From: Siphonodentalium dalli
Lineage: Eukaryota; Mollusca; Scaphopoda; Gadilida; Siphonodentaliidae
Assembly (NCBI GenBank): GCA_032622095.1
Contig: CP136062.1
Span: 53,859,849-53,923,848, forward strand
Direction: 5' to 3'
DNA: 64,000 bases
Shown: in pieces, positions 7,276 through 54,583 of the stretch
Layout: the number at the start of each line of letters is the position of its first letter
Position numbering within the stretch: the first letter of the stretch is position 1
Notes under the pieces: generated by a model
What the model saw: only the letters and a program-made list of their open reading frames with translations
The model's database searches: none
Told to the model about the DNA's origin: nothing
Position numbers and translations under genes: made by a program

Positions 7276-7794
7276 AGATACGGGCGGCGTTGGTGGTGGG
7301 TGTTCTGTTAAAATATTCACCTCCGCCAAAAACCGCCATAAACAGAAGGAATAGTAAGATATAGACATACTTTGTTCTTATAACAACCAGAACTATGGCA
7401 TTAACAGTATATGTTATTGTCGATTTCCCCCTTTGTTATGTCAACAAAAGCAAAAAAACGTAACGTTACCTGGCTTTTGTTTAGATCCGGATTTGGTAAA
7501 CATAAAAAGCTTTATTTGTTACTGTTTTCCTGACATGGAAATAATAAAGAGCGTTTATATCATTTGTGTGTGATCAACCGATATAATTGCGTTGTGTTAT
7601 GTACACAGAAGCACAACTTCTGTAACACGAGCAAGCTCTTGTATACGTACTCCATCGTACGTCTTGATCACAATATACTATTTACGCGCTGATTATGTTT
7701 GGCATATGAACAAAACTATATATTTTATATATTCCTTCTGTTGATGACGATTTGAACAGAAAGAATATTTCTGCAACGAACACCGCCCGTGCCT
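7276..7794 (-). mobile_element. TTAA-flanked MITE (Kolobok/T2-like) inside LINE
   Basis: A 519-bp non-coding element lies between TTAA at 7272-7275 and TTAA at 7795-7798. Its ends are inverted copies of each other: 'AGGCACGGGCGGTG' at one end and 'AGATACGGGCGGCGTTGG' at the other. It matches, in reverse orientation, the elements at 35380-35872 and 40234-42557, including 'cacacaaatg', 'aacgctctttatta' and the terminal 'acccaccaccaa' stretch. TTAA target duplication with a terminal TTAAAGG is the signature of Kolobok / Xenopus T2-type MITEs (established knowledge), although piggyBac also uses TTAA. Removing it rejoins two neighbouring parts of the LINE protein, showing it inserted after the LINE. 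Confidence 0.8.
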
Positions 7795-8109
7795 TTAAGC
7801 AGTAACTCTGAACCGTATAAACACCTCGGAAGTACAATAGATTCATAAATCTTTTTACAACTGGCGGGAGTTATACCTCCCGCATACATCACTGCATTAG
7901 ATAACACGAAGAATGCATTCCTTATGCGATCACATATTTGAGTTATGATTTGCGAGTTGAACTTTTGAGTGACAACAGGTACACCAAGGTGCGCAGTGCT
8001 TTGATAAACTGGTATTTGCATAGACCCCAGTTTCCATTCATAATTTATGTTTGTTTCATTAAAAATACGACTAACATATATTCCTTCATACGAGCGTATA
8101 TGCATATCG

Positions 8110-8221
8110 TATGTGATATCAATTATTCCTTATGTTGATATATGTTGTATTTATTATATGTGCAACTGCCCATTGGGTGTATATTGCATTAAAATCTTAT
8201 CTTATCTTATCTTATCTTACT
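8110..8221 (+). mobile_element. 5'-truncated retroelement tail ending in (TCTTA)n
   Basis: A short plus-strand segment ends in about five copies of TCTTA (8194-8219) and interrupts the minus-strand LINE between 'RWRYRYNAAK' and 'MHIRSYEGIYVS'. A 3' microsatellite tail with no coding capacity is typical of a severely 5'-truncated LINE or SINE copy. The exact left boundary and target duplication are not clear. Confidence 0.55.
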
Positions 8222-8880
8222 TGGCTGCATTGTATCTGTAACGCCATCTTTCGCTATATGAGAAACATATATTACACAAGGCCTGTAGACGACTCGGGGT
8301 TAATGATACCAGGACCATGTCATCATCATGTGTAGGAGATGCACAGCTTAATCCATACATTTTGAAACCACATTTGGATTTGCCGAGGTCATGTTACAGA
8401 TCATCAATACATATTGATGATTAAGCAGGAGATAGAGTACCTACTTGTCTAGTTCCTTGCAAAAACATTTATCCAGCTAAATGTGAAATTCTGAACAGAA
8501 GTACAACATTCAATTCCTTTTAAAAGATCACAAATTATACGTTGGCGGTTGAAAAGCTTGTAAAGAAGTCCGTCGATCCACACTGTATCGAATGCCTTCC
8601 ACATATCCAGGCAACATGCATACAGTTTGCTGTGCCTCTCGGATGTGTAGAGGATGCATTCCTTCATAAGGTAAGATTACACAACTTACTTTTGTCTGAA
8701 AACTATTTTGCAATGGATGAGTTGCATTTACAAATGGTGCATGGTCTTGTATGCCACATAGCAAAAGTTTCTCAAATATTTTATACATGACGTGCATGAG
8801 CGTTACAGCACGATAGCTATCAAAAGAGTCTTTAGGCTTTGGATTTACCTCGCTTTGCTTGACATGGAATATGTTCGAAT

Positions 8881-9062
8881 TTTATCATCATATTGAACAA
8901 TATACATGTTTTCTTTGCCAGTATATCACCACCACAAATAAAGTGTTTATAACTCAAGCGACCATCTCCAGATGCTTAGCCCAAGTTCAGAGTACTAACG
9001 AGACGACGGAATCATTCAGGCGTAACTGGGTACATAGTCAATGTGTCAGTTTTATCAGTATA
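8881..9062. other. Left flank of the foldback element
   Basis: Unique sequence without recognisable features. It ends immediately before the 8-bp duplication CTCGTAGA. Confidence 0.5.
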
Positions 9063-9070
9063 CTCGTAGA
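9063..9070. repeat. Target-site duplication, left
   Basis: CTCGTAGA is present here and again at 14571-14578, exactly abutting both ends of the 5500-bp foldback element. Confidence 0.88.
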
Positions 9071-9204
9071 CGGTGTGACTAATTACCGCCCGGGACCACC
9101 CGGGCGGCCCCACGGGCCAGTGGACACACTATCTCGACGGTATAACGTAGCGACATGCCACCTGAGGGCAACATAGAAAAATTTACTCGCTCGCTCGTCT
9201 CCGG

Positions 9205-12200
9205 CCGGTCATATTAACCCCACAAATGCCGATATTGGCTAAAAGAGCCTGCGTGATTACTGGTGTCTTCGTGTGTTTTCAGACAGATTATTTTGGTGAT
9301 TCTCGGTAGTGCAATACACCTGAGTGTTAATTCCATGTATTGACTCGTTGACGCGTCCACGGCCGATGTTATTAACCCCTCAAATTCAGGTAAAATAGTG
9401 TATAAACAAAAGAACATTGGAACCGCCCGGGACCGCCCGGGCGGACCCATGGGCCCGTGGACACTATATATCGACGTTATAACATAGCGACATACCCCAC
9501 GAGGTCAACCTAGAAAATGTTACTCGCTCGCTCGACCCCGGCCGGTGTTATTAACCCCTCAAAATCCGACAAAATGGTATATAAACAAAAAGAACATTGG
9601 GACCGCCCGGGTGGCCCCACGTGCCCGTGGACACAATATCTCTACCATATAACGTAGCGACATACTCCACGAGGTCAACATAGAAAATGTTACTCGCTCG
9701 CTCGCTCGACTCCGGCCGGTGTTATTAACCCCTCAAAATCCGATAAAATGGTATATAAACAAAAAGTACATTGGGACCGCCCGGCACCGCCCGGGAGGCC
9801 ACATGGGCCCGTGGACACTATATCTCGACGTTATAACGTAGCAACATACCCCACGAGGTCAAACTACAAAATGGTACTCGCTCGCTCGACTCCGGTCGGC
9901 GTTATTAACCCCTCAAAAACCGATAAAATTGTATATAGACAAAACGAACATTGGGACCGCCCGGGACCGCCCGGTGGCCCCACGTGCATGTGGACACAAT
10001 AACTCGACGTTATAACGTAGCGACATGCCACCTGAGGGCAACATAGAAAAATGTACTCGCTCGCTCGTCTCCGGTCGGTCATATTAACCCCCACACATGC
10101 CGATATTGGCTAAAAGAGCCTTGGTGATTACTGGTGTCTTCGTGTGTTTTCAGACAGATTATTTTGGTGATTCTCGGTAGTGCAATAAACCTGAGTGTTA
10201 ATTCCATGTATTGACTCGTTGACGCGTCCACGGCCGATGTCATTAACCCCTCAAATTCAGGTAAAATAGTGTATATACAAAAGAACCTTGGAACCGCCCG
10301 GGACCACCCGGGCGGACCCATGGGCCCGTGGACACTATATCTCGACGTTATAACATAGCGACATACCCCACGAGGTCAACCTAGAAAATGTTACTCGCTC
10401 GCTCGACCCCCGGCCGGTGTTATTAACCCCTCAAAATCCGACAAAATGGTATATAAACAAAAAGCACATTGGGACCGCCCGGGACCGCCCGGGTTGTCCC
10501 ACGTGCCCGCGGACACAAGATCTCGACGTTATAACATAGCGACATACCCCACGAGGTCAACCTAGAAAATGTTATTCGCTCGCTCGACCCCGGCCGGTGT
10601 TATTAACCCCTCAAAATCCGACAAAATGGTATATAAACAAAAAGCACATTGGGACCGCCCGGGACCGCCCGGGTGGCCCCACGTGCCCGTGGACACAATA
10701 TCTCGACGATATAACGTAGCGACATACTCCACGAGGTCAACCTAGAAAATGTTACTCGCTCGCTCGCTCGACTCCGGCCGGTGTTATTAACCCCTCAAAA
10801 TCCGATAAAATGGTATATAAACAAAAAGAACATTGGAACCGCCCGGCACCGCCCGGGAGGCCCCATGGGCCCGTGGACACTATATCTCGACGTTATAACG
10901 TAGCGACATACCACACGAGGTCAAACTACAAAATGGTACTCGCTCGCTCGACTCCGGTCAGCGTTATTAACCCCTCAAAATCCGATACAATGGTATATAG
11001 ACAAAACGAACATTGGGACCGCCCGGGACCGCCCGGGTGGCCCCACGTGCCTGTGGACACAATATATCGACGTTATAACGTAGCGACATGCCACCTGAGG
11101 GCAACATAGAAAAATGTACTCGATCGCTCGTCTCCGGTCGGTCATATTAACCCCCACAAATGCCGATATTGGCTAAAAGAGCCTTGGTGATTACTGGTGT
11201 CTTCGTGTGTTTTCAGACAGATTATTTTGGTGATTCTCGGCAGTGCAATACACCTGAGTGTTAATTCCATGTATTGACTCGTTGACGCGTTCACGGCCGA
11301 TGTTATTAACCCCTCAAATTCATTCAGGTAAAATAGTGTATAAACAAAAGAACCTTGGAACCGCCCGGGACCGCGGGGCGGACCCATGGGCCCGTGGACA
11401 CTATATCTCGACGTTATAACATAGCGACATACCCCACGAGGTCAACCTAGAACATGTTACTCGCTCGCTCGACCCCGGCCGGTGTTATTAACCCCTCAAA
11501 ATCCGACAAAATCGTATATAAACAAAAAGCACATTGGGACGGCCCGGGACCGCCCGGGTGGCCCCACGTGCTCGTGGACACAACATTTCGACGTTATAAC
11601 ATAGCGACATACCCCACGAGGTCAACCTAGAAAATGATACTCGCTCGCTCGACCCCGGCCGGTGTTATTAACCCCTCAAAATCCGACAAAATGGTATATA
11701 AACAAAAAGAACATTCGGACCGCCCGGGTGGCCCCACGTGCCCGTGGACACAATATCTCGACGATATAACGTAGCGACATACTCCACGAGGTCAACCTAG
11801 AAAATGTTACTCGCTCGCTCGCTCGACTCCGGCCGGTGTTATTAACCCCTCAAAATCCGATAAAATGGTATATCAACAAAAAGTACATTGGGACCGCCCG
11901 GCACCGCCCGGGAGGCCCCATGGGCCCGTGGACACCATATCTCGACGTTATAACGTAGCGACATACCCCACGAGGTCAAACTACAAAATGGTACTCGCTC
12001 GCTCGACTCCGGTCGGCGTTATTAACCCCTCAAAATCCGATAAAATTGTATATAGACAAAACGAACATTGGGACCGACCGGGACCGCCCGGGTGGCCCCA
12101 CGTGCCTGTGGACACAATATCTCGACGTTATAACGTAGCGACATGCCACCCGAGGGCAACATAGAAAAATGTACTCGCTCGCTCGTCTCCGGTCGGTCAT

Positions 12201-12370
12201 ATTAAACCCCACAAATGCCGATATTGGCTAAAAGAGCCTTGGTGATTACTGGTGTCTTCGTGAGTTTTCAGACAGATTATTTTGGTGATTCTCGGTAGTG
12301 CAATATATCTGAGTGTTAATTCCATGTATTGACTCGTTGACGCGTCCACGGCCGATGTTATTTACCCCTC
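9205..12370 (+). repeat. Left-arm higher-order array (four B blocks)
   Basis: B blocks begin near 9205, 10076, 11139 and 12194, giving higher-order periods of roughly 870, 1060 and 1055 bp. Between them lie about four, five and five A subunits. Corresponding A subunits in successive higher-order units are more alike than adjacent ones (for example those with 'ggtcaaactacaaaatgg' recur once per block), which is the hallmark of higher-order repeat expansion. Confidence 0.8.
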
Positions 12371-12376
12371 AAAAAA

Positions 12377-14425
12377 CATTTTCTAGGTTGACCTCGTGGG
12401 GTATGTCGCTACCGTATAACGTCGATATATTGTGTCCACGTGCACGTGGGGCCAACCGGGCGGTCCCGGGCGGTCCCAATGTTCTTTTTGTCTATATACC
12501 ATTTTATAGGATTTTGAGGGGTTAATAACGCCGGCCGGAGTCGAGCGAGCGAGTACCATTTTGTAGGTTGACCTCGTGGGGTATGTCGCTACGTTATAAC
12601 GTCGAGATATAGTGTCCACGGGCCCATGGGGCCTCCCGGGCGGTCCCGGGCGGTCCCAATGTCCTTTTTGTTTATATAACCATTTTGTCGGATTTTGAGG
12701 GGTTAATAACACCGGCCGGGGTCGAGCGAGCGAGTAACATTTTCTAGGTTGACCTCGTGGGGTATGTCGCTACGTTATAACGTCGATATATAGTGTCCGC
12801 GGGCACGTGGGGCCACCCGGGCGGTCCCGGGCGGTCCCAATGTTCCTTTTGTTTATATACCATTTTGTCGGATTTTGAGGGGTTAATAACGCCGTCCGGA
12901 GTCGAGCGAGCGAGTACCATTTTGTAGGTTGACCTCGTGGGGTATGTCGCTACGTTATAACGTCGAGATATAGTGTCCACTTGCCCATGGGGCCTCCCGG
13001 GCGGTCCCGGGCGATCCCAATGTTCATTTTGTTTATATACCATTTAATCGGATTTTGAGGGGTTAATAACACCGGCCGGGGTCGATCGAGCGAATAACAT
13101 TTTCTAGGTTGACCTCGTGCGGTATGTCGCTATGTTATAACGTCGAGATATTGCGTCCACGTGCACGTCGGGCCACCCGGGCGGTCCCAATGTGCTTTTT
13201 GTTTATATACCATTTTGTCGGATTTTGAGGGGTTAATAACACCGGCCGGGGTCGAGCGAGCGAGTAACATTTTCTAGGTTGACCTCGTGGGTATGTCGCT
13301 ATGTTATAACGTCGAGGTATAGTGTCCACGGGCCCATGGGGCCGCCCGGGCGGTCCCGGGCGGTTCCAAGGTTCTTTTGTTTATACACTATTTTACCTGA
13401 ATTTGAGGGGTTAATAACATCGGCCGTGGTCGCGTCAACGAGTCAATACATGGAATTAACACTCAGGTGTATTGCACTACCGAGAATCACCAAAATAATC
13501 TGTCTGAAAACACACGAAGACACCAGTAATCACCAAGGCTCTTTTAGCCAATATCGGCATTTGTGGGGGTTAATATGACCGACCGGAGACGAGCGAGCGA
13601 GTATGTTGCCCTCAGGTGGCATGTCGCTACGTTATAATGTCGAGATATTGTGTCCACGGGCACGTGGGGCCACCCGGGCGGTCCCGGGCGGTCCCAGTGT
13701 TCTTTTTGTCTATATACCATTTTATCGGATTTTGAGGGGTTAATAACACCGACCGCGGTCGAGCGAGCGAATAATATTTTCTAGGTTGACCTTGTGTGGT
13801 ATGTCGCTATGTTATAACGTCGAGATATTGTGTCCACGGGCACGTGGGGCCACCCGGGTGGTCCCGAGCGGTCCCGGGCGGTCCCAATGTTCTCTTTGTT
13901 TATATACCATTTTGTCGGATTTTGAGGGGTTAATAACACCGGCCGGGGTCGAGCGAGCGAGTAACATGTTCTAGGTTGACCTCGTGTGGTATGTCGCTAT
14001 GTTATAACGTCGAGATGTTGTGTCCACGGGCACGTGGGGCCACCCGGGCGGTCCCGGGCGGTCCCAATGTACTTTTTGTTTATATACCATTTTGTCGGAT
14101 TTTAAGGGGTTAATAACACCGGCCGGGGTCGAGCGAGCTAGTAACATTTTCTAGGTTGACCTCGTGGGGTATGTCGCTATGTTATAACGTCGAGATATAG
14201 TGTCCACGGGCCCATGGGGCCGCCCGGGCGGTTCCAATGTTCTTTTGTTTATACACTAATAACATCGGCCCTGGACGCGTCAACGAGTCAATACATGGAA
14301 TTAACACTCAGGCGTATTGCTCTACCGAGAATCACCAAAATAATCTGTCTGAAAAAACACGAAGACACCAGTAATCACCCAGGCTCTTTTAGCCAATATC
14401 GGCATTTGTGGGGTTAATATGACCG
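12377..14425 (-). repeat. Right-arm inverted array (two B blocks)
   Basis: From about 12377 the same subunits appear reverse complemented, starting 'aacattttctaggttgacct'. Inverted B blocks lie at about 13395-13578 and 14262-14425, with roughly six and four A subunits before them. The arm is ~1.1 kb shorter than the left arm, about one higher-order unit fewer. Confidence 0.8.
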
Positions 14426-14570
14426 GCCGGAGTCGAGCGAGCGAGTAAATTTTTCTATGTTGCCCTCAGGTGGCATGTCGCTACGTTATACCGTCGATAT
14501 ATTGTGTCCACGGGCCCGTGGGGCCGCCCGGGCGGTCCCGGGTGGTCCCGGGCGATAATTAGTCACACCC

Positions 14571-14578
14571 CTCGTAGA
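14571..14578. repeat. Target-site duplication, right
   Basis: CTCGTAGA, identical to 9063-9070, directly follows the last base of the foldback element. Confidence 0.88.
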
Positions 14579-29529: not shown

Positions 29530-30158
29530 CTATAAAGCATTGACGGACAGCATGTCTGGGTTGAATTTAGTTCGATATATGTATTGTTTGACAAGCAGCC
29601 AAAACAAATTGGTGGTATAATTTCCTTCTGTTGGTGGAGAACCTAGAATAATTATTTGTTTCGAAGTTTTGAGATTAAGGTTATTTTTGGTTGACCAATC
29701 GTTAAGCTCACCTAGGAATTGTTGTACGCATGCGCAGTCCCAGAATATATGTGAGATGTTCTCATTATTATTTCTGCATCGATTACACTGGTCATCAGAT
29801 CTTACTTTTATTATTTTAAGAAATCTATTAGTTGATAATATCCGAGAAGTACTCCTAAACTGTAACCACTGGAGCTTTGTATCAGGCGCCGTGGAGTAAG
29901 GTAGGCGGTTGAAAGTTGTCCAGTCTATTTCTGGCTCCCCAAGTTCAATTGTCCATTTGCTATGGGGCTTGGGGAAAAATTTCATAGCATTCAAAATTTT
30001 ATAGAAGTCTTGCCCACCCTTTGAATTTTGCAAAAGTGGAACCATATTGCTGGGTTGTATGGGATTAGTACAACGAGTTAAGGTTTTCGTATATTGTTTG
30101 GCTAATGAATTAATTTGTCTGCGAATTGCGTTCAGATATATTAAGTTATGTGTTTATA
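29530..30158 (-). pseudogene. LINE C-terminal domain relic (L1/Tx1-like)
   Basis: The open frame from 30157 runs without a stop for over 200 codons. It includes 'INSLAKQYTKTLTRC' at the start, 'LQWLQFRSTSRILSTNRFLK' and a zinc-binding motif of the form C-x2-C-x7-H-x4-C ('CNRCRNNNENISHIFWDCAC'). That is the zf-RVT-like domain at the C-terminus of L1/Tx1-type ORF2. An upstream in-frame stop near 30158 and the absence of the reverse transcriptase show a 5'-truncated copy. The long intact frame suggests it is younger than the neighbouring relics. Confidence 0.8.
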
Positions 30159-40229: not shown

Positions 40230-40504
40230 TTAAAGGGACGAGAGGGTTTAGTTGTCGAAAATATTTGTTCCAAACACCGTAAACAGATCAATATTAAAAC
40301 GCATACATTTTGGTTCAAATATACGATCACTATCCCTTAAAGGAATACGGTCCTGAAAAAAACAAAATTATTTTCTTTCAATATACCGATAATATATATA
40401 TATAATGTCCATTGGGCGCATATAATCTAATATTCGGCCGCCAATCGTTATTTTTATAACGATTCAAAAAAAATCCGAAGTTAGCCGAAGATTTTGTTGT
40501 AGAC

Positions 40505-40585
40505 GAAGTCACGTGATCATCAGCCCGATCACGTGATTGTCACATGTAAACAGAAGCATAGCACGTGATCGATCACGTGGTAACT
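40505..40585. promoter_or_regulatory. Four CACGTG E-boxes, one 18-bp palindrome
   Basis: CACGTG occurs at 40510, 40530, 40562 and 40574. The last two form the perfect palindrome CACGTGATCGATCACGTG (40562-40579). GTCACGTGA-type sites bind bHLH-ZIP factors such as MITF/TFE and USF (established knowledge). Whether this is a promoter in the transposon is inference; the sites might instead be subterminal transposase-binding repeats. Confidence 0.5.
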
Positions 40586-41759
40586 CATTGACAACGCATA
40601 GATACGCGACGGCGGTATTTTAAGTTTGCATGTAGTCGATCGCGGCCTTTGACGATTGTCGCGTTATCACACTGCGAATGCAAAACTTCGCCGAAACATC
40701 GCCTTTCTCGTAATTAAATGTCGATCTTTATCGTGTTATTATTACTATTATTATATGTATCGCGATGTGTTGTTACTATAAAGCCATGCCCGTATATTAT
40801 TCAGTTTTGCGCGCATTTATCTATATAAACGCGTGCTCGTGTTTATATATATTTTTTCGTTACCGGAATAGTCCAAGTTATATTATATATGCATATCAAG
40901 ATTGCATATATACGCGAAGACTTGCACAGTTATTAGGCAATTATCATCTCGTAAACATTCCAATTTCCAGATGACATTAGTCGTGTGTCAATAAAGAGCG
41001 TTTCGTTTTAATTATCGTAACGCGGTAAAACAACACACAATTGGTTTATTGCTGTCGGATTTAATCAATTATAATCAAGTCATTCATTACCAATATGATA
41101 TGTTCATTTTTCCTTGGTTATGAATCATGTAATTATTTGGGCAATATGGTGTTTATATATATTTCGGAATATTGCTTCCCCCACCCCAAAACAATCTAGC
41201 CGACTGTCACTGGTGGAAATTTACTACATCTATGCATCGTTATTGACCTATTAAATTAGCACTCTAGCGATGCGGTCTATTGAATATCCAGGTCATAAAT
41301 CGACCTCTATGTGGCAATTACGCATAACAATAGGGTTATACACTTTTTGAAGGAGGGATAATAATCCGGTTTAATATGGAATCACATATTCAAGTGCTCT
41401 TTATTCGCAATATATCGTAATAGTGAACGCTCTTTATTGCGTCAAGGTAAAGGGACTCGACTTAGAACAGTTGTCATCGTGATTTTTTTTAATGATTACA
41501 CCAATACAGGTCAATACATGTACACGAACTTCCGATATGCATGCTTTATATATCCTTCCAAGTCATAGCAATTTCCGCTTTATTAAACTCTTTTTATTCG
41601 TACCATATTAGGAAAACTCTTAACATGGAACGCTCTTTATGGAGCCATGGTGAAGGAAATGGGGAATCGACTAAGAATAGTTGTTATCGTGATTTATTCA
41701 ACATACTCTCCACTTTAACTGCAATTGTATGTATTCGTAACCATGACTGACTTGTCAAA

Positions 41760-41978
41760 TTAAACGCTCTTTATTTGGTATATGTAATCGGTTTCTGATG
41801 ATTGCGCAACGGGTTTCCCACAGAAATGCCGCCAAATGGCACGTAAACGAACATCGTTTGGAAATGAATACAGCATTATACCTAACTGAGAGTCACTAGA
41901 CCGGCCACAGCCGAAAACACTGCATTTATATGGCAATGTTACGAATGAATGATTGTAAATACGGGACACTCGGGGCAT
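41760..41978 (-). pseudogene. N-terminal half of a THAP zinc-finger protein
   Basis: The minus-strand frame (72 codons) includes 'KCSVFGCGRSSDSQLG', the C-x4-C start of a THAP domain, then 'LYSFPNDVRLRAIWRHFCGK' with the conserved FP and W residues. The second half of the domain (C-x2-H) and the AVPTIF-type end are absent; the frame stops at 'YIYQIKSV'. Either an exon junction has been lost or the copy is truncated. THAP domains bind DNA and are found at the N-termini of P-element and Kolobok transposases and of host genes derived from them. Its place inside a TTAA-flanked element favours a Kolobok origin. An identical copy is at 50926-51144. Confidence 0.72.
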
Positions 41979-42561
41979 ATATACGGAAAATTAAAACAAC
42001 ATCGTGAACACGCGCCCGAATAGAGTTCACATGCGAGGTTTTGCGACGGAGATAGCCAACAACCGGTGGCGGTATTATTTATTTATTTCTCGGCTTAATT
42101 ATTACGCGATTTTTATGGGACTTGGATTATTGTGATCACAATAGGGGTGGCTTTCCGATAGAGTTTTGTTGTTTCATGAGCACTGTAATCCCTTAAACAT
42201 CATGCTTACATAAAGACCTAAATTTTACCTAAACAAGAGTCTGATTGTGTTATAGAAGGCAGCATAATGCTACTGGCTAATCACACACAAATGGTACAAA
42301 CGCTCTTTATTATTTCCAAATAAGGAATTGAGCAACAAAGAACGCTCTTTATGTTTACCATCATAATATAAAGAAACACCAGGAAAGTAACTTTTTATGC
42401 TTTGTTTACATAACAGTCGGCAAATTTACGACTATAACATAATGTTTATGAGATATTTCTCATTTGTATATTAACAAAGTCTGTCTATATTTGAATATTA
42501 TTTCGTTTGTAGCGGTGGAAATATGTTCACATGATACCCACCAAGGCCTTCATACCTTTAA

Positions 42562-42949
42562 GGTATACTACAACTGTTTTTCTTTTCAATAGCAGAATAC
42601 AGAATGCTATTAAGAAGTGACACAAAACACAGAACATTTGTTTTAATTATAAGTATTAAGAAGTGAGAGATATGTGAGTCAAGGAAACCAGTAACGAAAG
42701 GCAATATTAACATGATTTGTCAGAGAATAATTGTTTACGTTCCAATGAATATGTACTGGAAACAAACTGTCTGTACCAGACTTTCATAAACACAAATTAT
42801 GTATTAATGATCATTAATGGTGTAACGACATATTTCGTTCTTTAATGTCTCAAATGAAAGTGTCAATGACACTGTAGCTCAACTTTGAGAAGAAGTTAAA
42901 TTTGTGTGATGAGCAATGAATGGAAAGATTTAGAATTGAATTTGGAAAT
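42562..42949. other. No recognised feature
   Basis: Unique spacer between the TTAA element and the tandem array. 'gtaacgacatatttcg' near 42822 resembles the 'ttaacgacatttttcg' repeats at 43951-44470. Confidence 0.4.
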
Positions 42950-43900
42950 CCAAGATGGCCGCTGGCAGCCATGTTTTTTTGTCGGAATGTCCCCAAAATG
43001 ACTCATTCTCATCTACATTCCAATTTCAACAGCCATGAAAAATTTCATGATGATCAGACTAAAGGTACGACCTGTAGCCCGTGCTAAAGGATTTAGTCAT
43101 ACAAAGATTAAAATCCAAGATGGCTGCTGGCGGCCATGTTTTTGGGTCAAATGATCCCAAAATGACTCGTTCCCATCTACATGTCATTATTAACATTCTT
43201 GACAAATTTTATGATGATCAGACTGAAAGTACGACCTGTAGCCCGTGCTAAAGAATTTAGTCATACAAAGAGTAAAATCCAAGATGGCTGCTGGCGGCCA
43301 TGTTTTTTGGCCGAATAACCCCAAAATTACTCGTTCCCATCTACATGTCAATATTATCATCCATGACAAATTTCATGATGATCAGACAAACAGTACGACC
43401 TGTGGCCCGTGCTAATGGATTAAATTTTGAAATCCAAGATGGCCACTGGCGGCCATGTTTTTTGTCCGAATGACCCCAAAATGACTCGTTCCCATCTACA
43501 TTCCAATTTCAACAGCCATGACAAATTTTATGATGATCAGACTAAAGTTAAGACCTGTAGCCCGTGCTAAAGATTTAGTCATATAAAGACTAAAATCCAA
43601 AATGGCTGCTGCGGCCATGTTTTTTGGCCGAATGACCCCAAAAGGACTCGTTCCCATCTACATGTCATTATTAACATTCTTGACAAATTTCATGATGATC
43701 AGACAAACATTACGAACTGTAGCCCGTGCTAATGGATTGAATTTTGAAATCCAAGATGGCCACTGGCGGCCATGTTTTTTTTCCGAATGATCCCAAAATT
43801 AATAATCTGGTCTAAATGTTGATGTCAACAGCTATGACAAATTTCATAATGATCCGACCAAAGGTACGACCTGTAGCCTGCATTGTTGACGCCTTACGTA
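42950..43900 (+). repeat. Six-unit ~160-bp tandem array, 'ccaagatggc' core
   Basis: Units start at about 42950, 43115, 43279, 43434, 43597 and 43751 (periods 154-165). Each has 'ccaagatggc', 'ggcggccatgttttt', 'ccccaaaatgactcgttccc', 'atgatgatcaga' and 'gacctgtagcccgtgcta'. Alternate units share the variant 'taatggatt' versus 'taaagatttagtcat', so the array grew partly by duplicating a two-unit block. It ends in 'cacacatacacacggacgac' and 'ccatggcaatagctca', an ending I recall from mollusc mobile elements. Confidence 0.9.
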
Positions 43901-43950
43901 CACACATACACACGGACGACAAAGCCATGGCAATAGCTCAAACTTTACAA

Positions 43951-44470
43951 TTTAACGACATTTTCGGTCTTTAACAGTTTAATAGGGGCCCCCGGTGGTC
44001 CAGTCGGTAGAGTGCCAGGTGTTTTACGTCGTCCCAGGCCGTCCAGCGCTGACGAAGCTGGTTCTAACCCCACCATAGGGAGGGTGACCGGAATCGTGTA
44101 TCTGGGCAAGTTTGTCAATTGCTTTCCGGGGGTCGGTGGTTTCTACACGCAGTGGAACAACTTCCCGGTGAAATTGAGCCTCTGCGTGGTCTTTCCTCCA
44201 CCCGTAAAATTGACAACGTCGTGTGTGGCCTAGCGGCTAGAATGACGATAAACCCTAATAAACAACAGCAACAACAATTAATAGTTTAATGACATTTTTC
44301 GGTCTTTATAATATCTCAAGATATAGGGGGTATTTGGATCTCTAGTTTAACGACATTTTTCGGTCTTTATAGTTTAACGACATTTTTCGGTCTTTAATAT
44401 CTCAAGATAGAGGGGCCCTTAGGGGGTATTTGGATCTCTAGTTTAACGACATTTTTCGGTCTTTGATAGC
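43951..44470. repeat. 'tttaacgacatttttcggtc' repeats around a SINE
   Basis: The phrase recurs about five times (43951, 44284, 44345, 44371, 44440), with two copies of 'tctcaagata' plus 'gggggtatttggatctctag'. The SINE at 43984-44282 is inserted in this series. Confidence 0.8.
43984..44282 (+). mobile_element. tRNA-derived SINE, ~299 bp
   Basis: The head contains an A-box-like 'TGGTCCAGTCGG' (43996) and a perfect B-box pattern 'GGTTCTAACCC' (44060), the internal RNA polymerase III promoter of tRNA-derived SINEs. The body includes 'ctctgcgtggtctttcctcc', reminiscent of a conserved SINE central domain. The tail reads 'ggcctagcggctagaatgac' then (AACA)n-like repeats. Direct duplications AGTTTAAT at 43976-43983 and 44283-44290 mark the insertion. 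The body shows no frame worth calling. The tail matches the LINE tail at 28676-28733, a likely mobilising partner. The A-to-B box spacing is longer than usual. Confidence 0.88.
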
Positions 44471-45194
44471 AAAATGGAAGAAGTACATATTTGGAAGATG
44501 TGGTGGCCCTAAAAAGGAAAGTTGTTTGGTGGTCTTGAAATGCAGTTTTTCTTAACAGTCTTCCTTGATTAAAGTGATGTGAAACACTCCGGCAGACACC
44601 GGGCAGAGTGATCAAATAAATAGAAATTAAGAATAATCTTTCTCAAAGTAGTTATTTGTTACGAATATTAATCCAAATGGATGTTACACAACGTCATTCT
44701 TATATATTAGTTAAATGCAATGACTCTCGATGGCAAAATGATTTTTGTTTAATTACAGCCGATAGTTGCGCCCCGAATCGAGATGTAAATATTTACAATT
44801 TGGAGTAGTTCAGACGATGTTCTATATGAAGTGGTGTGGTAGATCTTTTTGGAAATTTTCAGTGATGTTAGTAGAATGATAACATTCCCCACGTTGGAAA
44901 AGTGCCTGAGCACTAACTTATCAATTTCTCGCTCCCGAAAAATTCCATAATATGTCTTTAAACATATATATAAATCTCCGAAAAAAAAAATTCTAAAGCA
45001 TTAAACGATTTGCTATATTTCCACTAGGGCATATATTTCATCTGATTTTGCGAGAATCCATATATACTTTTTCATGAGAATCCAGGGTAATTTGCGAGAA
45101 TCTAGATTTGGATTCTCGCCGAAATATAAGCCCAGATTTCACTCTGAAGTGTGCCTAAATGGCATAAATTGTACCTTGGTTCCCATGTTCGCTA
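44471..45194. other. No recognised feature
   Basis: Includes a cluster of 'gcgagaatc' phrases at 45048-45120 but no gene that I can support. Confidence 0.4.
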
Positions 45195-45925
45195 TAAACT
45201 AGCTTGAAATTCGCAAACCAATGAATTTTTTTTCTTCAGAAAATTTACATTTTTATGATTCGCGACATAAATTGTCACCAATAAAAACAAATTTGATTCA
45301 TCGTGGAAGTTAGTCGGTGACTATAAATAATGTCACCATTCAACTGAATGTTGTTGAATTCTATTGAGATGTGGAGCAGACAATATATTGGGAGGCTCTT
45401 AGGCTCCATAGCATGAGGCCCCCACCCCCCTTTTTCGTATGCCGTATTCCATGCCCTGTTATGAGGTACGCCGTATTTCCGGCCCCTCTGTTAGGAGGTA
45501 TTCGGTATTCCAAAAATACCGGTATTCGTACGCCGACCTTCCAAAAAATGAAGTTTTCATATATTTTTATGTATTCCATATGGTATTCCGTATTCCAACT
45601 TCTGTGTTAAGTGGTATTCCGTCTTCCATGGGGGTGGGGTGGGGGCCTCTAGCATCTGCTCCTCAATCCTTACCAGATGTCAGTAAAAGTTTCCCATTTC
45701 ATTATTTCAGTTCTTTAGCAATCTTAATCATTATATGTAATGCCCTGACCATGCTCAATACTAGCTTGAAATTGGCGAAACAATGAATTTTTTTTCTTCA
45801 GAAAATTAACATTTTTATGACTCGCGACATAATTGTCATCAATAAAAACAAATTTTATTCATCGTGGAAGTTAGTCGGTGACTATAAATAATGTCACCAT
45901 TCAACTGAATGTTGTTGAGCATATT
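45195..45925. repeat. Direct repeats flanking a MITE
   Basis: 'actagcttgaaatt' followed by 'tgaattttttttcttcagaa' and 'gttagtcggtgactataaat' occurs at 45195-45360 and 45761-45916 at over 90% identity. A third partial copy starts at 46092. The 235-bp MITE lies between the first two. Confidence 0.85.
45415..45649. mobile_element. 235-bp MITE with GAGGCCCCCACCCC ends, 6-bp TSD
   Basis: The left end 'gaggcccccacccccc' and right end 'ggggtggggtgggggcctc' are inverted. TAGCAT directly abuts both ends (45409-45414 and 45650-45655), a 6-bp target duplication. The interior is built from 'ggtattccgtattcc' phrases. I do not recognise the superfamily. Confidence 0.88.
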
Positions 45926-47148
45926 TCAACCAATTTTGGAAGTTTAAATGAATATTTTCTTCACACTCAAAGTCAATTGACAAATTTCAGGATTTTAGCC
46001 TGCTTCGTTGGGACCAAATATTTGTTGTGCACACTGAAGGAACGTCTACCATCACTCGATAGGCCAGATTATGCCCTGACCATGCTATAAAGTATTAAAC
46101 TAGCTTGAAATTGGCAAAACTATGAATTTTTTTGGTTGAACAAATTTACATGGGAATCTCCATAGAAAACGGTTATATTTCGATAAAAACGAAAGTAATG
46201 CGAAATGAAAGTCGGCACTGGCCAGAATTGTGCAGAATAACATATGAGTCAAGTTATATGCGAATATTTGACCTCATTCGATTAAATAGTCTCGTATTTA
46301 AGGAATCAATGCCAATGGCGCTCTGACATGTGGAAATTTTTTCCGTCGCACTCGCAGACTGTAAGGCGGAATTGTGAAATGTAAACACGCATTACCTTTT
46401 GTGAGAATAACACAAGCGCAGACTTTATCAAAGTAATGCAATACACAACAACAAATAGGATAAAACGGATATAAAAACGGTATAAGTGAGAATAAACGTG
46501 GAAACAGTTGACAACATTTGTTCGGTTATTCGGCAAAACCGAAGGTATAGATTTATGGTCACTAACAAGAAATTCAATTAATTGAGGAAAAACACCCACT
46601 GTCCTGAGTGGTATTGATAAGCTGTTGGGGGGGGGGGAGAGATATTAATTGTGTTAAAGTGCAATGGGAAGTAATTGCGGTTAAGGGTAATAAGAAATGT
46701 CTTATTGCATTCTCATTGGGCTTAATCATAATTAGAGATTCCTTAAGTTATTGCGGTTAATCGAAATTGTCTATTAAATGTCAATTTTGATTCCCATAGA
46801 GATCATCAATGATGTCTATGCGCAGGGTCAACGTGCCAATCTTCTCTATTTGGATTCCAATTGTTGGCTCATTAAATATGCACATATGCTTAAGATACAG
46901 TCGTGCACGAAGCGAGCTCCCGTAAGTCGGGTTTTGGATCCCATGCAGTTAATGAAAATATCATTGAAATAATCAGTTTCCCCCAATTGATAAACAACCA
47001 TATATTCAATATACATGTTTTGGAGCAGAATTAGGCAGTCCATATTGGACGCCATCATGGAATTTATTTTTTTTGGTTTAATTTTGACACATATTTATTA
47101 GTTATGTGGATGGAGTTCTCATTAAACCTCACATCCTTATATTGGTTA
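45926..47148. other. No gene; G-run at 46626
   Basis: A G10-12 run near 46626 differs between the two duplication copies. Small open frames here are duplicated exactly but show no family features. Confidence 0.4.
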
Positions 47149-47619
47149 CAGTAATGCCCAAAGTAATTGACCACTTAACCACATCAGAATTATTCGTAAT
47201 TTTTCAGCATTTAAAATCCTGACAAATTACCCATTATTCAGCTGTGGTAAATTACTTTGTACATTACTGTATGAGGATTGAGTTATCATTACACCTCAAA
47301 TCCTTATATTGGTTACATTAATGCCCAAAGTAATTGACCACTTAACCACAGCAGAATTATGGGTATTTTTTCAGCATTTAAAATCCTGACAAATTACCAC
47401 TAATTATGCTGTGGTTAAGTGGTCGATTACTTTGGACATTACTGTATGAGGATTGAGTTATTATTACACCTCAAATCCTTATATTGGTTACAGTAATGCC
47501 CAAAGTAATTGACCACTTAACCACAGCAGAATTATGTTTAATTTTTCAGGATTTAAAATCATGAAAAAATACCCATTATTTTGCTGTGGTTAAGTGATCA
47601 ATTACTTTGGACATTACTG
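47149..47619. mobile_element. Three tandem hairpin MITEs
   Basis: Each ~120-130-bp unit (starting 47149, 47316 and 47491) begins 'c(a)gtaatgcccaaagtaa', continues 'ttgaccacttaaccacagca', and ends with the complement 'tgctgtggttaagtgg' to 'tttggacattactg'. Units are spaced ~175 bp, joined by 'ctcaaatccttatattggtt', so the array probably arose by tandem duplication of one insertion plus flank. The 'aaagtaattgacca' core is shared with the 48476 element, suggesting related transposase specificity. Confidence 0.88.
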
Positions 47620-47929
47620 TATGTAGATGGAGTTAAACCTCACATCAGTGTGTTGGGGATTTGGACCTTGACTTGGGACCTTTTGTTTTTAACGCGACAA
47701 AAGCGCGTACACCTTATACACAAATTTCTTATGTAACCAGAGTTTTTCTTGGATAAGATGAGTTTGAAGCCTGCTTACATTTCAAAATGTTGTCAGTTTT
47801 ATATTGTCTGCAGCGGAACTCAACGCGTTGAAGCAAAAGTTAGAAAAGATAAAATGTGTACGTAATGAGACTATAATACAACTGAAAAAATAAACTGAGG
47901 GAGGGGTGGGCGATACAGGGAACTAAGGG

Positions 47930-48925
47930 TTGAACCGATATAAATTTGTAGAGCGATAACGACCGATGTTGACATAATATGCATCTGAACTCTACTGTTG
48001 CAACATGGCTATAAAATAGGGGGGTGTCAGAATGTTAGTCATCTCTATATAGTGCCAGAATAGTCATCTATAAGATGTTGGGTTGGTTATATGGACTCGG
48101 AGAAAAAGTGGTTTGTACCGATGAACTGACATAAATTAGTGGAGCGATGTTGCATCGCGACTGTACTAAAGCAGCAATGATGTAAAATGGGGGGGGGGGG
48201 GTCTGAAATTATCTATCTTTATAGATGGCACCAGGATTATATAGATAGGAATAGCAATTGATATACGTATACAGTATACTATAGTAATACCATAGACATA
48301 TAAGTACAAATATCACGTGATAAAATATTACGTTACGTGAATATACCGATGAAAGAAATAAATAAATTGGACCGGGATTAGAGGTTGGGTTGGTTATATG
48401 TGGATAATTGGATATGGAATTCATACCGATGAAACGATACAAATTAGTGGAGCGATAATGACCAATGTTGACACTTACCGCTATACTTAAAGTAATTGAC
48501 CACCAGCAACGTGGTGTCACCCCGTTAATACTGCGGTACTATACCGCGGTATCCTCAAATACCGCGGTACTGATACCGCTTGTTAACGTATGTGGGAGTA
48601 AATACCTCCCCTCAAAGTGTTCCATGAAAATCACTGCGGTATTCAAAAAAATTAATGCGGTGCCCGCTAAAAGACCGCGGTATCATCGCCCAATACCGTA
48701 ATTCCACTGCCATGACCGCCTCGATACAGCTACCGTTTATTACCGGTATCACCGTGGTCATGACCGGGGTATCACCCCGTTTTTCTGGTCAATTACTTTG
48801 AGAATAGCGGTAGTCAGGCTACGCGCGGGAGAAAATAGGGGTTGATACGATAGACCAAAATAAATTTGTCAGGTGATAATGACCAATGTTGACCTATAAA
48901 GTAACGCGACTATACTGTCGCATAA
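47930..48925. repeat. Diverged tandem repeat, four units
   Basis: The phrase 'gagcgataatgaccaatgtt' or variants recurs near 47950, 48140, 48450 and 48870, with 'gttgggttggttatatg' and 'ctgtactaaagc'-type segments. Period is irregular. The 48476-48812 MITE is inserted in it, and a G13 run lies at 48189-48201. Confidence 0.6.
48476..48812. mobile_element. 337-bp MITE rich in 'accgcggtat' palindromes
   Basis: The left end 'taccgctatacttaaagtaa' and the reverse complement of the right end 'taccgctattctcaaagtaa' match, and both continue 'ttgacca'. The interior carries repeated 'taccgcggta' palindromes and near-palindromic 'atgaccggggtatcaccccg' phrases, making it much more GC-rich than its surroundings. 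No clear target duplication was identified. Confidence 0.8.
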
Positions 48926-49029
48926 TTATCAGGTGTAACCGGTCAAATATGAACTCTAGTGACCAATATAGAACAGGTCAGAAAACATTCGCAGGGCCCT
49001 AATTGGCCTAAAATTTATTTAACACTCCA

Positions 49030-49365
49030 TTTGCCATTATTGGCATTAAAATTGATTTATGTCGATAAAACTGTCATTTTTCAAAATTTTAAGCTGAGAC
49101 TTGGAGTGTGTTGGTGGGATAGATACATATTCGTAAAATGACAGAGTACAGCACGCAATTATGTTTTAGATGGAAGAAATGAATTTTTTTCAATGATAAA
49201 ATTTAACATGGAAATTTGAATTTACCATTAACATCGATTTATGTCGATAAAACTGTCATTTTTCAAACTTTTAGGCTGAGACTTGGTGTATGTGCGTGTG
49301 ATACATATATGTTCCTAAAATGACCGAGTCCAGCGCGTAATTATGTTTTAGATGGAAGAAATTGA
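49030..49365. repeat. Tandem duplication, ~186 bp x2
   Basis: 'gatttatgtcgataaaactg' begins each unit (about 49051 and 49237), followed by 'ctgagacttgg' and 'aattatgttttagatggaag'. Identity is high. Confidence 0.85.
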
Positions 49366-49487
49366 ATTTGACATTTTCACAATAACACGCCAATTCCGAA
49401 TCAGAAAATATTTGTTCCAAACACCGTAAACAGATCAATATTAAAACGCATACATTTTGGTTCAAATATACGATCACTATCCCTTAA

Positions 49488-51358
49488 AGGAATACGGTCC
49501 TGAAAAAAACAATATTATTTTCTTTCAATATACCGATAATATATATATAAAATGTCCATTGGGCGCATATAATCTAATATTCGGCCGCCAATCGTTATTT
49601 TTATAACGATTCAAAAAAAATCCGAAGTTAGCCGAAGATTTTGTTGTAGACGAAGTCACGTGATCATCAGCCCGATCACGTGATTGTCACATGTAAACAG
49701 AAGCATAGCACGTGATCGATCACGTGGTAACTCATTGACAACGCATAGATACGCGACGGCGGTATTTTAAGTTTGCATGTAGTCGATCGCGGCCTTTGAC
49801 GATTGTCGCGTTATCACACTGCGAATGCAAAACTTCGCCGAAACATCGCCTTTCTCGTAATTAAATGTCGATCTTTATCGTGTTATTATTACTATTATTA
49901 TATGTATCGCGATGTGTTGTTACTATAAAGCCATGCCCGTATATTATTCAGTTTTGCGCGCATTTATCTATATAAACGCGTGCTCGTGTTTATATATATT
50001 TTTTCGTTACCGGAATAGTCCAAGTTATATTATATATGCATATCAAGATTGCATATATACGCGAAGACTTGCACAGTTATTAGGCAATTATCATCTCGTA
50101 AACATTCCAATTTCCAGATGACATTAGTCGTGTGTCAATAAAGAGCGTTTCGTTTTAATTATCGTAACGCGGTAAAACAACACACAATTGGTTTATTGCT
50201 GTCGGATTTAATCAATTATAATCAAGTCATTCATTACCAATATGATATGTTCATTTTTCCTTGGTTATGAATCATGTAATTATTTGGGCAATATGGTGTT
50301 TATATATATTTCGGAATATTGCTTCCCCCACCCCAAAACAATCTAGCCGACTGTCACTGGTGGAAATTCACTACATCTATGCATCGTTATTGACCTATTA
50401 AATTAGCACTCTAGCGATGCGGTCTATTGAATATCCAGGTCATAAATCGACCTCTATGTGGCAATTACGCATAACAATAGGGTTATACACATCCAATCAT
50501 ATATAACACTTTTTGAAGGAGGGATAATAATCCGGTTTAATATGGAATCACATATTCAAGTGCTCTTTACTCGCAATATATCGTAATAGTGAACGCTCTT
50601 TATTGCGTCAAGGTAAAGGGACTCGACTTAGAACAGTTGTCATCGTGATTTTTTTTAATGATTACACCAATACAGGTCAATACATGTACACGAACTTCCG
50701 ATATGCATGCTTTATATATCCTTCCAAGTCATAGCAATTTCCGCTTTATTAAACTCTTTTTATTCGTACCATATTAGGAAAACTCTTAACATGGAACGCT
50801 CTTTATGGAGCCATGGTGAAGGAAATGGGGAATCGACTAAGAATAGTTGTTATCGTGATTTATTCAACATACTCTCCACTTTAACTGCAATTGTATGTAT
50901 TCGTAACCATGACTGACTTGTCAAATTAAACGCTCTTTATTTGGTATATGTAATCGGTTTCTGATGATTGCGCAACGGGTTTCCCACAGAAATGCCGCCA
51001 AATGGCACGTAAACGAACATCGTTTGGAAATGAATACAGCATTATACCTAACTGAGAGTCACTAGACCGGCCACAGCCGAAAACACTGCATTTATATGGC
51101 AATGTTACGAATGAATGATTGTAAATACGGGACACTCGGGGCATATATACGGAAAATTAAAACAACATCGTGAACACGCGCCCGAATAGAGTTCACATGC
51201 GAGGTTTTGCGACGGAGATAGCCAACAACCGGTGGCGGTATTATTTATTTATTTCTCGGCTTAATTATTACGCGATTTTTATGGGACTTGGATTATTGTG
51301 ATCACAATAGGGGTGGCTTTCCGATAGAGTTTTGTTGTTTCATGAGCACTGTAATCCC
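49488..51358. mobile_element. Kolobok-like element, second copy
   Basis: Twin of 40341-42192, flanked by TTAA at 49484-49487 and 51359-51362, with 19 extra bases near 50489. The E-box palindrome is at 49709-49726. Confidence 0.7.
50926..51144 (-). pseudogene. THAP half-domain ORF, second copy
   Basis: Protein-identical twin of 41760-41978, with the same stop after 'YIYQIKSV'. Confidence 0.72.
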
Positions 51359-52118
51359 TTAAACATCATGCTTACATAAAGACCTACTAAATTTTACCTA
51401 AACAAGAGTCTGATTGTGTTATAGAAGGCAGCATAATGCTACTGGCTAATCACACACAAATGGTATAAACGCTCTTTATTATTTCCAAATAAGGAATTGA
51501 GCAACAAAGAACGCTCTTTATGTTTACCATCATAATATAAAGAAACACCAGGAAAGTAACTTTTTATGCTTTGTTTACATAACAGTCGGCAAATTTACGA
51601 CTATAACATAATGTTTATGAGATATTTCTCATTTGTATATTAACAAAGTCTGTCTATATTTGAATATTATTTCGTTTGTAGCGGTGGAAATATGTTCACA
51701 TGATACCCACCAAGGCCTTCATACCTTTAAGGTATACTACAACTGTTTTTCTTTTCAATAGCAGAATACAGAATGCTATTAAGAAGTGACACAAAACACA
51801 GAACATTTGTTTTAATTATAAGTATTAAGAAGTGAGAGATATGTGAGTCAAGGAAACCAGTAACGAAAGGCAATATTAACATGATTTGTCAGAGAATAAT
51901 TGTTTACGTTCCAATGAATATGTACTGGAAACAAACTGTCTGTACCAGACTTTCATAAACACAAATTATGTATTAATGATCATTAATGGTGTAACGACAT
52001 ATTTCGTTCTTTAATGTCTCAAATGAAAGTGTCAATGACACTGTAGCTCAACTTTGAGAAGAAGTTAAATTTGTGTGATGAGCAATGAATGGAAAGATTT
52101 AGAATTGAATTTGGAAAT

Positions 52119-53069
52119 CCAAGATGGCCGCTGGCAGCCATGTTTTTTTGTCGGAATGTCCCCAAAATGACTCATTCTCATCTACATTCCAATTTCAACA
52201 GCCATGAAAAATTTCATGATGATCAGACTAAAGGTACGACCTGTAGCCCGTGCTAAAGGATTTAGTCATACAAAGATTAAAATCCAAGATGGCTGCTGGC
52301 GGCCATGTTTTTGGGTCAAATGATCCCAAAATGACTCGTTCCCATCTACATGTCATTATTAACATTCTTGACAAATTTTATGATGATCAGACTGAAAGTA
52401 CGACCTGTAGCCCGTGCTAAAGAATTTAGTCATACAAAGAGTAAAATCCAAGATGGCTGCTGGCGGCCATGTTTTTTGGCCGAATAACCCCAAAATTACT
52501 CGTTCCCATCTACATGTCAATATTATCATCCATGACAAATTTCATGATGATCAGACAAACAGTACGACCTGTGGCCCGTGCTAATGGATTAAATTTTGAA
52601 ATCCAAGATGGCCACTGGCGGCCATGTTTTTTGTCCGAATGACCCCAAAATGACTCGTTCCCATCTACATTCCAATTTCAACAGCCATGACAAATTTTAT
52701 GATGATCAGACTAAAGTTAAGACCTGTAGCCCGTGCTAAAGATTTAGTCATATAAAGACTAAAATCCAAAATGGCTGCTGCGGCCATGTTTTTTGGCCGA
52801 ATGACCCCAAAAGGACTCGTTCCCATCTACATGTCATTATTAACATTCTTGACAAATTTCATGATGATCAGACAAACATTACGAACTGTAGCCCGTGCTA
52901 ACGGATTGAATTTTGAAATCCAAGATGGCCACTGGCGGCCATGTTTTTTTTCCGAATGATCCCAAAATTAATAATCTGGTCTAAATGTTGATGTCAACAG
53001 CTATGACAAATTTCATAATGATCCGACCAAAGGTACGACCTGTAGCCTGCATTGTTGACGCCTTACGTA
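52119..53069 (+). repeat. Six-unit ~160-bp array, second copy
   Basis: Twin of 42950-43900 with the same six units; one difference seen is 'taacggatt' for 'taatggatt' in the last unit. Equal unit number in both copies argues that the duplication is recent. Confidence 0.9.
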
Positions 53070-53152
53070 CACACATACACACGGACGACAAAGCCATGGC
53101 AATAGCTCAAACTTTACAATTTAACGACATTTTCGGTCTTTAACAGTTTAAT

Positions 53153-53451
53153 AGGGGCCCCCGGTGGTCCAGTCGGTAGAGTGCCAGGTGTTTTACGTCG
53201 TCCCAGGCCGTCCAGCGCTGACGAAGCTGGTTCTAACCCCACCATAGGGAGGGTGACCGGAATCGTGTATCTGGGCAAGTTTGTCAATTGCTTTCCGGGG
53301 GTCGGTGGTTTCTACACGCAGTGGAACAACTTCCCGGTGAAATTGAGCCTCTGCGTGGTCTTTCCTCCACCCGTAAAATTGACAACGTCGTGTGTGGCCT
53401 AGCGGCTAGAATGACGATAAACCCTAATAAACAACAGCAACAACAATTAAT
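53153..53451 (+). mobile_element. tRNA-derived SINE, second copy
   Basis: Twin of 43984-44282 with the same AGTTTAAT duplications (53145-53152 and 53452-53459). It was therefore present before the segmental duplication. Confidence 0.88.
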
Positions 53452-54583
53452 AGTTTAATGACATATTTCGGTCTTTATAATATCTCAAGATATAGGGGGT
53501 ATTTGGATCTCTAGTTTAACGACATTTTTCGGTCTTTATAGTTTAACGACATTTTTCGGTCTTTAATATCTCAAGATAGAGGGGCCCTTAGGGGGTATTT
53601 GGATCTCTAGTTTAACGACATTTTTCGGTCTTTGATAGCAAAATGGAAGAAGTACATATTTGGAAGATGTGGTGGCCCTAAAAAGGAAAGTTGTTTGGTG
53701 GTCTTGAAATGCAGTTTTTCTTAACAGTCTTCCTTGATTAAAGTGATGTGAAACACTCCGGCAGACACCGGGCAGAGTGATCAAATAAATAGAAATTAAG
53801 AATAATCTTTCTCAAAGTAGTTATTTGTTACGAATATTAATCCAAATGGATGTTACACAACGTCATTCTTATATATTAGTTAAATGCAATGACTCTCGAT
53901 GGCAAAATGATTTTTGTTTAATTACAGCCGATAGTTGCGCCCCGAATCGAGATGTAAATATTTACAATTTGGAGTAGTTCAGACGATGTTCTATATGAAG
54001 TGGTGTGGTAGATCTTTTTGGAAATTTTCAGTGATGTTAGTAGAATGATAACATTCCCCACGTTGGAAAAGTGCCTGAGCACTAACTTATCAATTTCTCG
54101 CTCCCGAAAAATTCCATAATATGTCTTTAAACATATATATAAATCTCCGAAAAAAAAAATTCTAAAGCATTAAACGATTTGCTATATTTCCACTAGGGCA
54201 TATATTTCATCTGATTTTGCGAGAATCCATATATACTTTTTCATGAGAATCCAGGGTAATTTGCGAGAATCTAGATTTGGATTCTCGCCGAAATATAAGC
54301 CCAGATTTCACTCTGAAGTGTGCCTAAATGGCATAAATTGTACCTTGGTTCCCATGTTCGCTATAAACTAGCTTGAAATTCGCAAACCAATGAATTTTTT
54401 TTCTTCAGAAAATTTACATTTTTATGATTCGCGACATAAATTGTCACCAATAAAAACAAATTTGATTCATCGTGGACGTTAGTCGGTGACTATAAATAAT
54501 GTCACCATTCAACTGAATGTTGTTGAATTCTATTGAGATGTGGAGCAGACAATATATTGGGAGGCTCTTAGGCTCCATAGCAT

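Follow-up and report, generated by a model that had tools for sequence, protein, structure and literature searches.

A satellite-armed foldback element of the scaphopod Siphonodentalium dalli, very probably of the Mutator superfamily

Tetris, a foldback element of Drosophila virilis, was assigned to Mutator by the length of its target duplications (PMC4079207), and Tm1 of root-knot nematodes is a Mutator/Foldback element (PMC3169594). The Mutator-like elements (MULEs) on record in molluscs have terminal inverted repeats (TIRs) of 48 bp, of 296 bp, or none, Phantom MULEs without FLYWCH are also on record, and a cnidarian MULE carries an ovarian-tumour (OTU) gene (PMC6446971). Given these mollusc and cnidarian elements, each part of the system described below has a precedent. 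We found neither a mollusc foldback with satellite arms nor a MULE with the same parts in the open-licence literature, a search that covered titles and abstract openings and not Repbase. The subject of this study is a block of satellite-like repeats in a stretch of 64,000 bp of the S. dalli genome (contig CP136062.1, positions 53,859,849 to 53,923,848), which we call the window. We conclude, with a probability of about 0.93, that this block belongs to the Mutator superfamily, as a non-autonomous copy that has undergone internal deletion and whose foldback arms consist of a ~180-bp satellite. It is a real transposon, well supported, apparently new as a family and of a known kind.

The features of the block are as follows, in window coordinates; the names of the unit types (A, B, C1, C2, D, E) were coined in this analysis.

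9063-9070, no strand: target duplication, left copy CTCGTAGA, 8 bp (exact match and random-pair estimate)
9071-14570, no strand: whole element, 5,500 bp, very probably a non-autonomous foldback (ends and arm alignment)
9071-9085, plus strand: left end CGGTGTGACTAATTA, outer base C (inverted-end match; genomic copies of the terminus)
9071-12373, plus strand: left arm, with a truncated D, A-B-C1-E-D, twice A-B-C2-C1-E-D, A, and a 21-bp B remnant (start motif and pairwise identity)
10076-11138, plus strand: higher-order repeat copy A-B-C2-C1-E-D, 1,063 bp
11139-12193, plus strand: higher-order repeat copy, 1,055 bp
12373-12374, no strand: head-to-head junction of the arms, without spacer, B remnant against a truncated C-like unit
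12374-14570, minus strand: right arm, same unit types inverted, shorter and rearranged (start motif and identity)
14556-14570, minus strand: right end, GGGTGTGACTAATTA when read inward, outer base G (inverted-end match)
14571-14578, no strand: target duplication, right copy, 8 bp (exact match and random-pair estimate)

The boundaries of the element are sharp. The octamer CTCGTAGA occurs exactly twice in the window, and the 5,500 bp between its copies start with CGGTGTGACTAATTA and finish with TAATTAGTCACACCC. The inner 14 bp of the two ends (9072-9085 and 14556-14569) are perfect inverted copies of each other, a motif that does not recur in the window even when 2 mismatches are allowed. Read inward, only the outermost base is unlike, being C on the left and G on the right. 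The first ~400 bp from both ends align closely save three gaps. The chance that any one pair of octamers agrees is ~2.4e-5 (78 of 2,000,000 random flank pairs). A scan of the window for 14-bp inverted ends with an abutting 8-bp direct repeat gave 45 hits, 44 of them starting inside the element; in each of the 11 internal hits listed, the direct repeat is CCCATGGG, a palindrome that belongs to the arm sequence. The 9063/14571 pair is the only one with the repeat outside the arms. Twenty mononucleotide shuffles produced no hit, even with ends of 10 bp, and chance does not account for the flanked unit with inverted ends.

The arms are built from units mostly of 170-190 bp, represented by GGTGTTATTAACCCCTCAAAATCCGA, together with the diverged type A of 158-159 bp. 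They differ in length (3,303 bp on the left and 2,197 bp on the right) and are 94.8% identical over 2,166 aligned columns. The order A-B-C2-C1-E-D forms a higher-order repeat of ~1.06 kb, and successive A units of the left arm are spaced by 870, 1,063 and 1,055 bp. Within the left arm, copies of C1, E and D share 95.5-98.9% identity, and their identity to the right-arm copies is 92.9-96.1%, which fits an expansion of the left arm after the arms separated. The unit identities fit later unequal exchange inside the left arm together with exchange between the arms. The outer 15 bp, CGGTGTGACTAATTA, match the unit start, CGGTGTTATTAACCC, at 10 positions, a likeness reached in fixed register by 198 of 200,000 shuffles and, with free placement along the unit, by 4,048 of 20,000. 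The corresponding counts for a 12-base version, a cut chosen after the data were seen, are 19 of 200,000 and 146 of 20,000. The resemblance between the ends and the unit start is suggestive only.

The composition of the element differs from its surroundings, with a GC content of 51% against 37% outside and a CpG observed/expected ratio of 1.29 against about 1.0-1.06. One kilobase of single strand across the centre folds at -394 kcal/mol, compared with a mean of -151 for 20 shuffles. We considered whether the translated frames of the arms could be genes and rejected them as chance frames: one has no homologues and three have only sub-cutoff fn1 matches. An Rfam search gave no match. An exact pattern of the unit had no occurrence in a viral contig collection or in a genome contig collection, in neither of which the host is expected.

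The ends of the element recur many times in the host genome, a chromosome-scale assembly of 2.2 Gb. The terminus GGTGTGACTAATTANCGCCCGG has 660 exact copies (324 forward and 336 reverse), and its reversed control has none on either strand. When window positions 9063-9300 were used as query, 79 matches were obtained, with 40 of 2,036 candidates scored; among the first 41, 36 of the 40 non-self matches start at query bases 7-10, which is the terminus, and the remaining four at bases 2, 23, 23 and 24. We read 47 elements at both ends: the window copy with 14 fetched loci (the first set), 30 pairs (the second), and two large elements, here called C4 and C9. The pairs are plus and minus termini less than 20 kb apart, and comprise all such neighbours among the first 100 of the 660 places except L023 and the window copy. 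Sequence was taken from 20 loci and from the outer portions of three additional loci that carry the transposase; L022 was counted as one element, and for L079/L080 the farther of two plus ends lying 91 bp apart was taken and the nearer left out. The 47 do not include loci at which a single end was found (L009, L010, L014, L018, L021 and the C3 element).

In 34 of the 47 elements the 8-bp target duplication is perfect (10/15 in the first set, 22/30 in the second, and both large ones). Copies elsewhere in the genome terminate at this base too, with 8-bp duplications of their own. The 30 pairs span 211 to 18,199 bp, with a median of 4,400, and the family forms a size series from arms-only copies to ~18.8 kb. 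Three pairs on C1 and C2 (L033/L034, L067/L068 and L069/L070) have identical immediate flanks, GGCA GTCCAACC ... AAAC, and may therefore be one insertion copied with its surroundings, which would likely have involved insertion into a larger repeat and copying with it. Separately, L021 contains a 7.5-kb tandem duplication (1-2490 and 7508-10000, 99.9%) that includes one end of a family member.

These results bear out most of a preliminary description of the block, made from its sequence, which had proposed a single mobile unit of foldback layout with an 8-bp target duplication, and arms of tandem subunits with a higher-order structure. Its own condition for refutation, that further copies would end at other positions or that none would share these termini and have flanking 8-bp duplications, did not hold. 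It had also proposed a young insertion, for which the perfect duplication speaks weakly; the high identity of the arms, its other argument, does not date the insertion because the arms of such elements exchange sequence.

The larger members of the family carry genes. A middle of ~1.4 kb, whole or in part, is common to L012, L016, L013, L009, L021 and L024. A 16.3-kb element (C2:38309124-38325429), with a duplication matching at 7 of 8 positions, has a middle of ~9 kb that encodes on one strand an OTU frame (PF02338, 2.4e-6) and a PHD finger (PF00628, 1.1e-6). An 18.2-kb element (C1:120936968-120955166) has, also on one strand, an OTU frame and two transposase exons, P0002 (361 amino acids) and P0001 (404 amino acids), whose intron borders are GT and AG by eye. 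OTU and PHD frames are both present in L013, part of the C4 element; the PHD finger lies in a frame apart from the transposase exons, and its pattern was not found in L091/L092. P0002 matches the N-terminal part of the homologue P0014. P0001 matches PF10551 (5.7e-6) with 27.1 bits, 0.5 bit under the cutoff of 27.6, PF00872 below its cutoff (0.0011), and an IS256 model far below the equivalog cutoff (3.7e-6). Its 79 homologues are mostly without name and many of them have PF10551 or PF00872. They include relatives in the molluscs Haliotis rufescens, Littorina saxatilis and Mytilus edulis, in the coral Paramuricea clavata, and in a record that bears the label of a tubeworm endosymbiont. When P0001 and 19 other sequences are aligned, D81 is nearly invariant and D159 and E278 are invariant; we take these to be the DDE triad, going by the motifs of MULE and IS256 transposases. 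The N-terminal FLYWCH zinc finger of Phantom was not found in the two exons P0001 and P0002, nor in P0008 and P0014, two long homologues, with a first exon possibly lying elsewhere.

A genome search with P0001 gave 110 matches, with 103 of 1,458 candidates scored. Four full-length copies are 99-100% identical, three of them free of stops and one with a single stop; no other full-length match exceeds 80%, and some partial copies lie between these levels. Three elements of 16.4-18.8 kb with the family termini enclose the exon, at 99-100% identity among them. In addition to the C1 element, these are C4:99481104-99499952 (18,849 bp, GTACCCAT at both sides) and C9:48927894-48944283 (16,390 bp, AACAACAC at both sides), both of which enclose a full-length copy. 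More diverged MULE transposase relatives, from 80% to about 33% identity, also occur in the genome, some with open frames of about 900-1,280 amino acids, which suggests that the host has several MULE families.

The family thus combines features of the Mutator superfamily, namely a MULE transposase domain with DDE residues in the large copies and not in the window copy, duplications of 8 bp that fall within the range of 8-11 bp, and arms that correspond to long TIRs. It belongs structurally to the foldback class by its long inverted arms of tandem repeats. Under the proposed mechanism, a transposase produced by a large copy would act in trans, binding the ends and perhaps the tandem units too, would cut out an arms-only copy, and would insert it at a staggered 8-bp target. 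Unequal exchange would lengthen and shorten the arms and give rise to the higher-order repeat, and deletion of the middle would leave a pure foldback such as the window copy. By analogy with Galileo, the tandem units may act as extra binding sites (PMC3688188).

Several observations weigh against this assignment or parts of it. The perfect duplication is missing in 13 of the 47 elements. The two copies differ by one mismatch in L020, L045/46 and L087/88 and by two in L039/40, and the duplication is shifted by one base in L065/66. L028, L063/64, L083/84 and the 18.2-kb element, L085/86, have a right copy that, as judged by eye, is interrupted after ~5 bp by a short insert containing GGGTG; this insert resembles the right end of the element itself and is possibly a footprint. 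L022, L024, L026 and L079/80 have no duplication, and arm-like sequence lies beyond a terminus in L022 and L080. P0002 was read in the C1 element only. On C3, the fourth of the full-length transposase copies is interrupted by one in-frame stop, and the right end of the C3 element was not found in the fetched stretch. In the arms of the window copy, types A, B and C2 show no excess of identity within the left arm, and the least-variable blocks of the units do not exceed what permutation yields and hence give no indication that binding sites are under selection.

The two ends of these elements differ in a systematic way. Between the duplication and GGTGTG, the top strand has the same base at the two ends, either C or G, in 45 of the 47 elements, among them all 34 with a perfect duplication. 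The outer base is not part of the duplication, and the left end therefore reads CGGTGTG and the right end GGGTGTG. The two exceptions, L022 and L079/L080, are without duplication, and the pairing of their ends is doubtful. The outer base seemed to track the orientation of the middle in six of six elements, an idea that failed once the satellite was masked, with 8 of 12 agreeing. Here the 16.3-kb element defines the direction, C9 was judged by its transposase strand, and the ambiguous L014 and L022 were left out. The orientations agree in L009, L012, L013/C4, L016, L021, L024, the 16.3-kb element and C9, and the middle is reversed relative to the ends in L020, L023, L025 and the 18.2-kb C1 element; it may flip by exchange between the arms. 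We can offer a broader and rather unlikely proposal, in which these elements form a distinct animal MULE lineage whose transposase goes with an OTU protease and a PHD finger. The lineage would spread a higher-order satellite in the form of its arms, with the arrays as sites of transposase loading. The outermost base pair, C on the left and G on the right, is the one conserved difference seen between the mirror-image ends and would enable the transposase to bring together a left and a right end. Alternatively, the outer base may be neutral and differ only because it lies beyond the reach of exchange between the arms.

Other origins of the block have to be weighed against the assignment to the Mutator superfamily. 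The window element consists entirely of repeat units, and neither a spacer nor a gene was found in it, as might be expected of a local satellite array inverted and duplicated in place without any transposon. The other copies refute this: the terminus lies at 660 places, most of the insertions read have their own duplications, and the direct repeat of CTCGTAGA stands outside the arms. Palindromes are also a known assembly artefact, here a read folded back, an origin that is refuted by the other copies and by flanks that are not mirrored; the arms are moreover of unequal length and 94.8% identical.

Two further rivals concern the identity of the transposase. Duplications of 8 bp occur in the P and hAT superfamilies too, and the preliminary description had looked to these for the transposase. 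Galileo likewise has long TIRs of tandem repeats (PMC3688188, PMC3573991). However, its duplications are of 7 bp (PMC3573991), the transposase within elements having these ends is MULE/IS256-like, and neither a P (THAP) nor a hAT domain was found in 13 open frames scanned from the large copies. A foldback moved by a Galileo-like P or a hAT transposase is thus largely refuted, and we regard it as very improbable. A little less remote, and still improbable, is the idea that the MULE genes are passengers and that another, unseen transposase moves the termini. The action of the MULE protein in trans is inferred here, and MULEs are known to acquire extra open reading frames (PMC6446971). Against it, the length of the duplications suits MULEs (8-11 bp; PMC6446971), and three large members that share these ends have the exon at 99-100% identity, perfect duplications flanking two of the three. 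Merlin, with duplications of 8-9 bp and terminal GG (PMC8101967), was rejected because the transposase is of MULE type.

The window contains other repeats. A tandem duplication of ~9.15 kb (40257-49402 and 49404-58549; 99.3% by BLAST, 17 mismatches, 50 gap columns) is either a recent duplication or an assembly doubling. The duplicated segment has arrays of 164-bp units (42946-43878 and 52115-53047) and of 175-bp units (47103-47635 and 56272-56804), the latter also matching its own reverse complement. On the minus strand, 29530-30153 contains a fragment of a zinc-binding reverse-transcriptase domain (PF13966, 2.3e-6), which is probably the remnant of a long interspersed nuclear element.

We know of no long foldback arms and no 8-bp duplications in the Helentron-borne repeats of bivalves. 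These belong to the Helitron group and resemble the present family in being satellite-like tandem repeats spread inside mobile elements of molluscs (PMC5139131, PMC11136912). Galileo is alike in its foldback-like TIRs, whose tandem repeats carry extra transposase binding sites (PMC3688188, PMC3573991), and differs in its P transposase and 7-bp duplications (PMC3573991). Rehavkus is MULE-like and has a minisatellite before the 3' TIR and a PHD finger, but its duplications are of 9 bp, compared with 8 bp in our 34 perfect cases, and it is known from insects and annelids (PMC6446971). In the family described here, by contrast, arrays of ~180-bp units occupy both arms, and the PHD finger is in a frame separate from the transposase exons.

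Tm1 shares composite foldback TIRs, variable tandem repeats, and a MULE transposase in rare copies; its outer motifs are asymmetric too (CGGTTAA at one end and CCTACCC at the other), and one same-end copy without duplication was explained by crossing over (PMC3169594). It differs by its 14-bp repeats, mostly 9-bp duplications and FLYWCH-type Phantom transposase, and its asymmetry involves 7 bp whereas ours involves one base (PMC3169594). The preliminary description knew of no mollusc element with this layout; the layout as such is not new, since Tetris already has long inverted repeats, ~220-bp tandem repeats, 8-10-bp duplications and non-coding copies, as well as a stretch common to its outer domain and its tandem unit (PMC4079207). 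Yet Tetris has an outer flanking domain of up to 866 bp and a middle domain, whereas the unique outer part is 15 bp here, and only three structurally complete copies and no transposase were reported, against a terminus present 660 times and an identified transposase in S. dalli (PMC4079207). Tetris is also the nearest model of a transposon that seeds satellites, for which the transposase was not found there (PMC4079207). In S. dalli, one chromosome-scale genome contains both partners, with many copies that have satellite arms and several, nearly identical, of a candidate MULE transposase. This makes it possible to test whether tandem units aid transposition and whether dispersed higher-order satellites derive from foldback arms. 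Among the described systems, Tetris is the nearest by layout, Tm1 the nearest with a transposase, and Rehavkus the nearest by its PHD finger and minisatellite.

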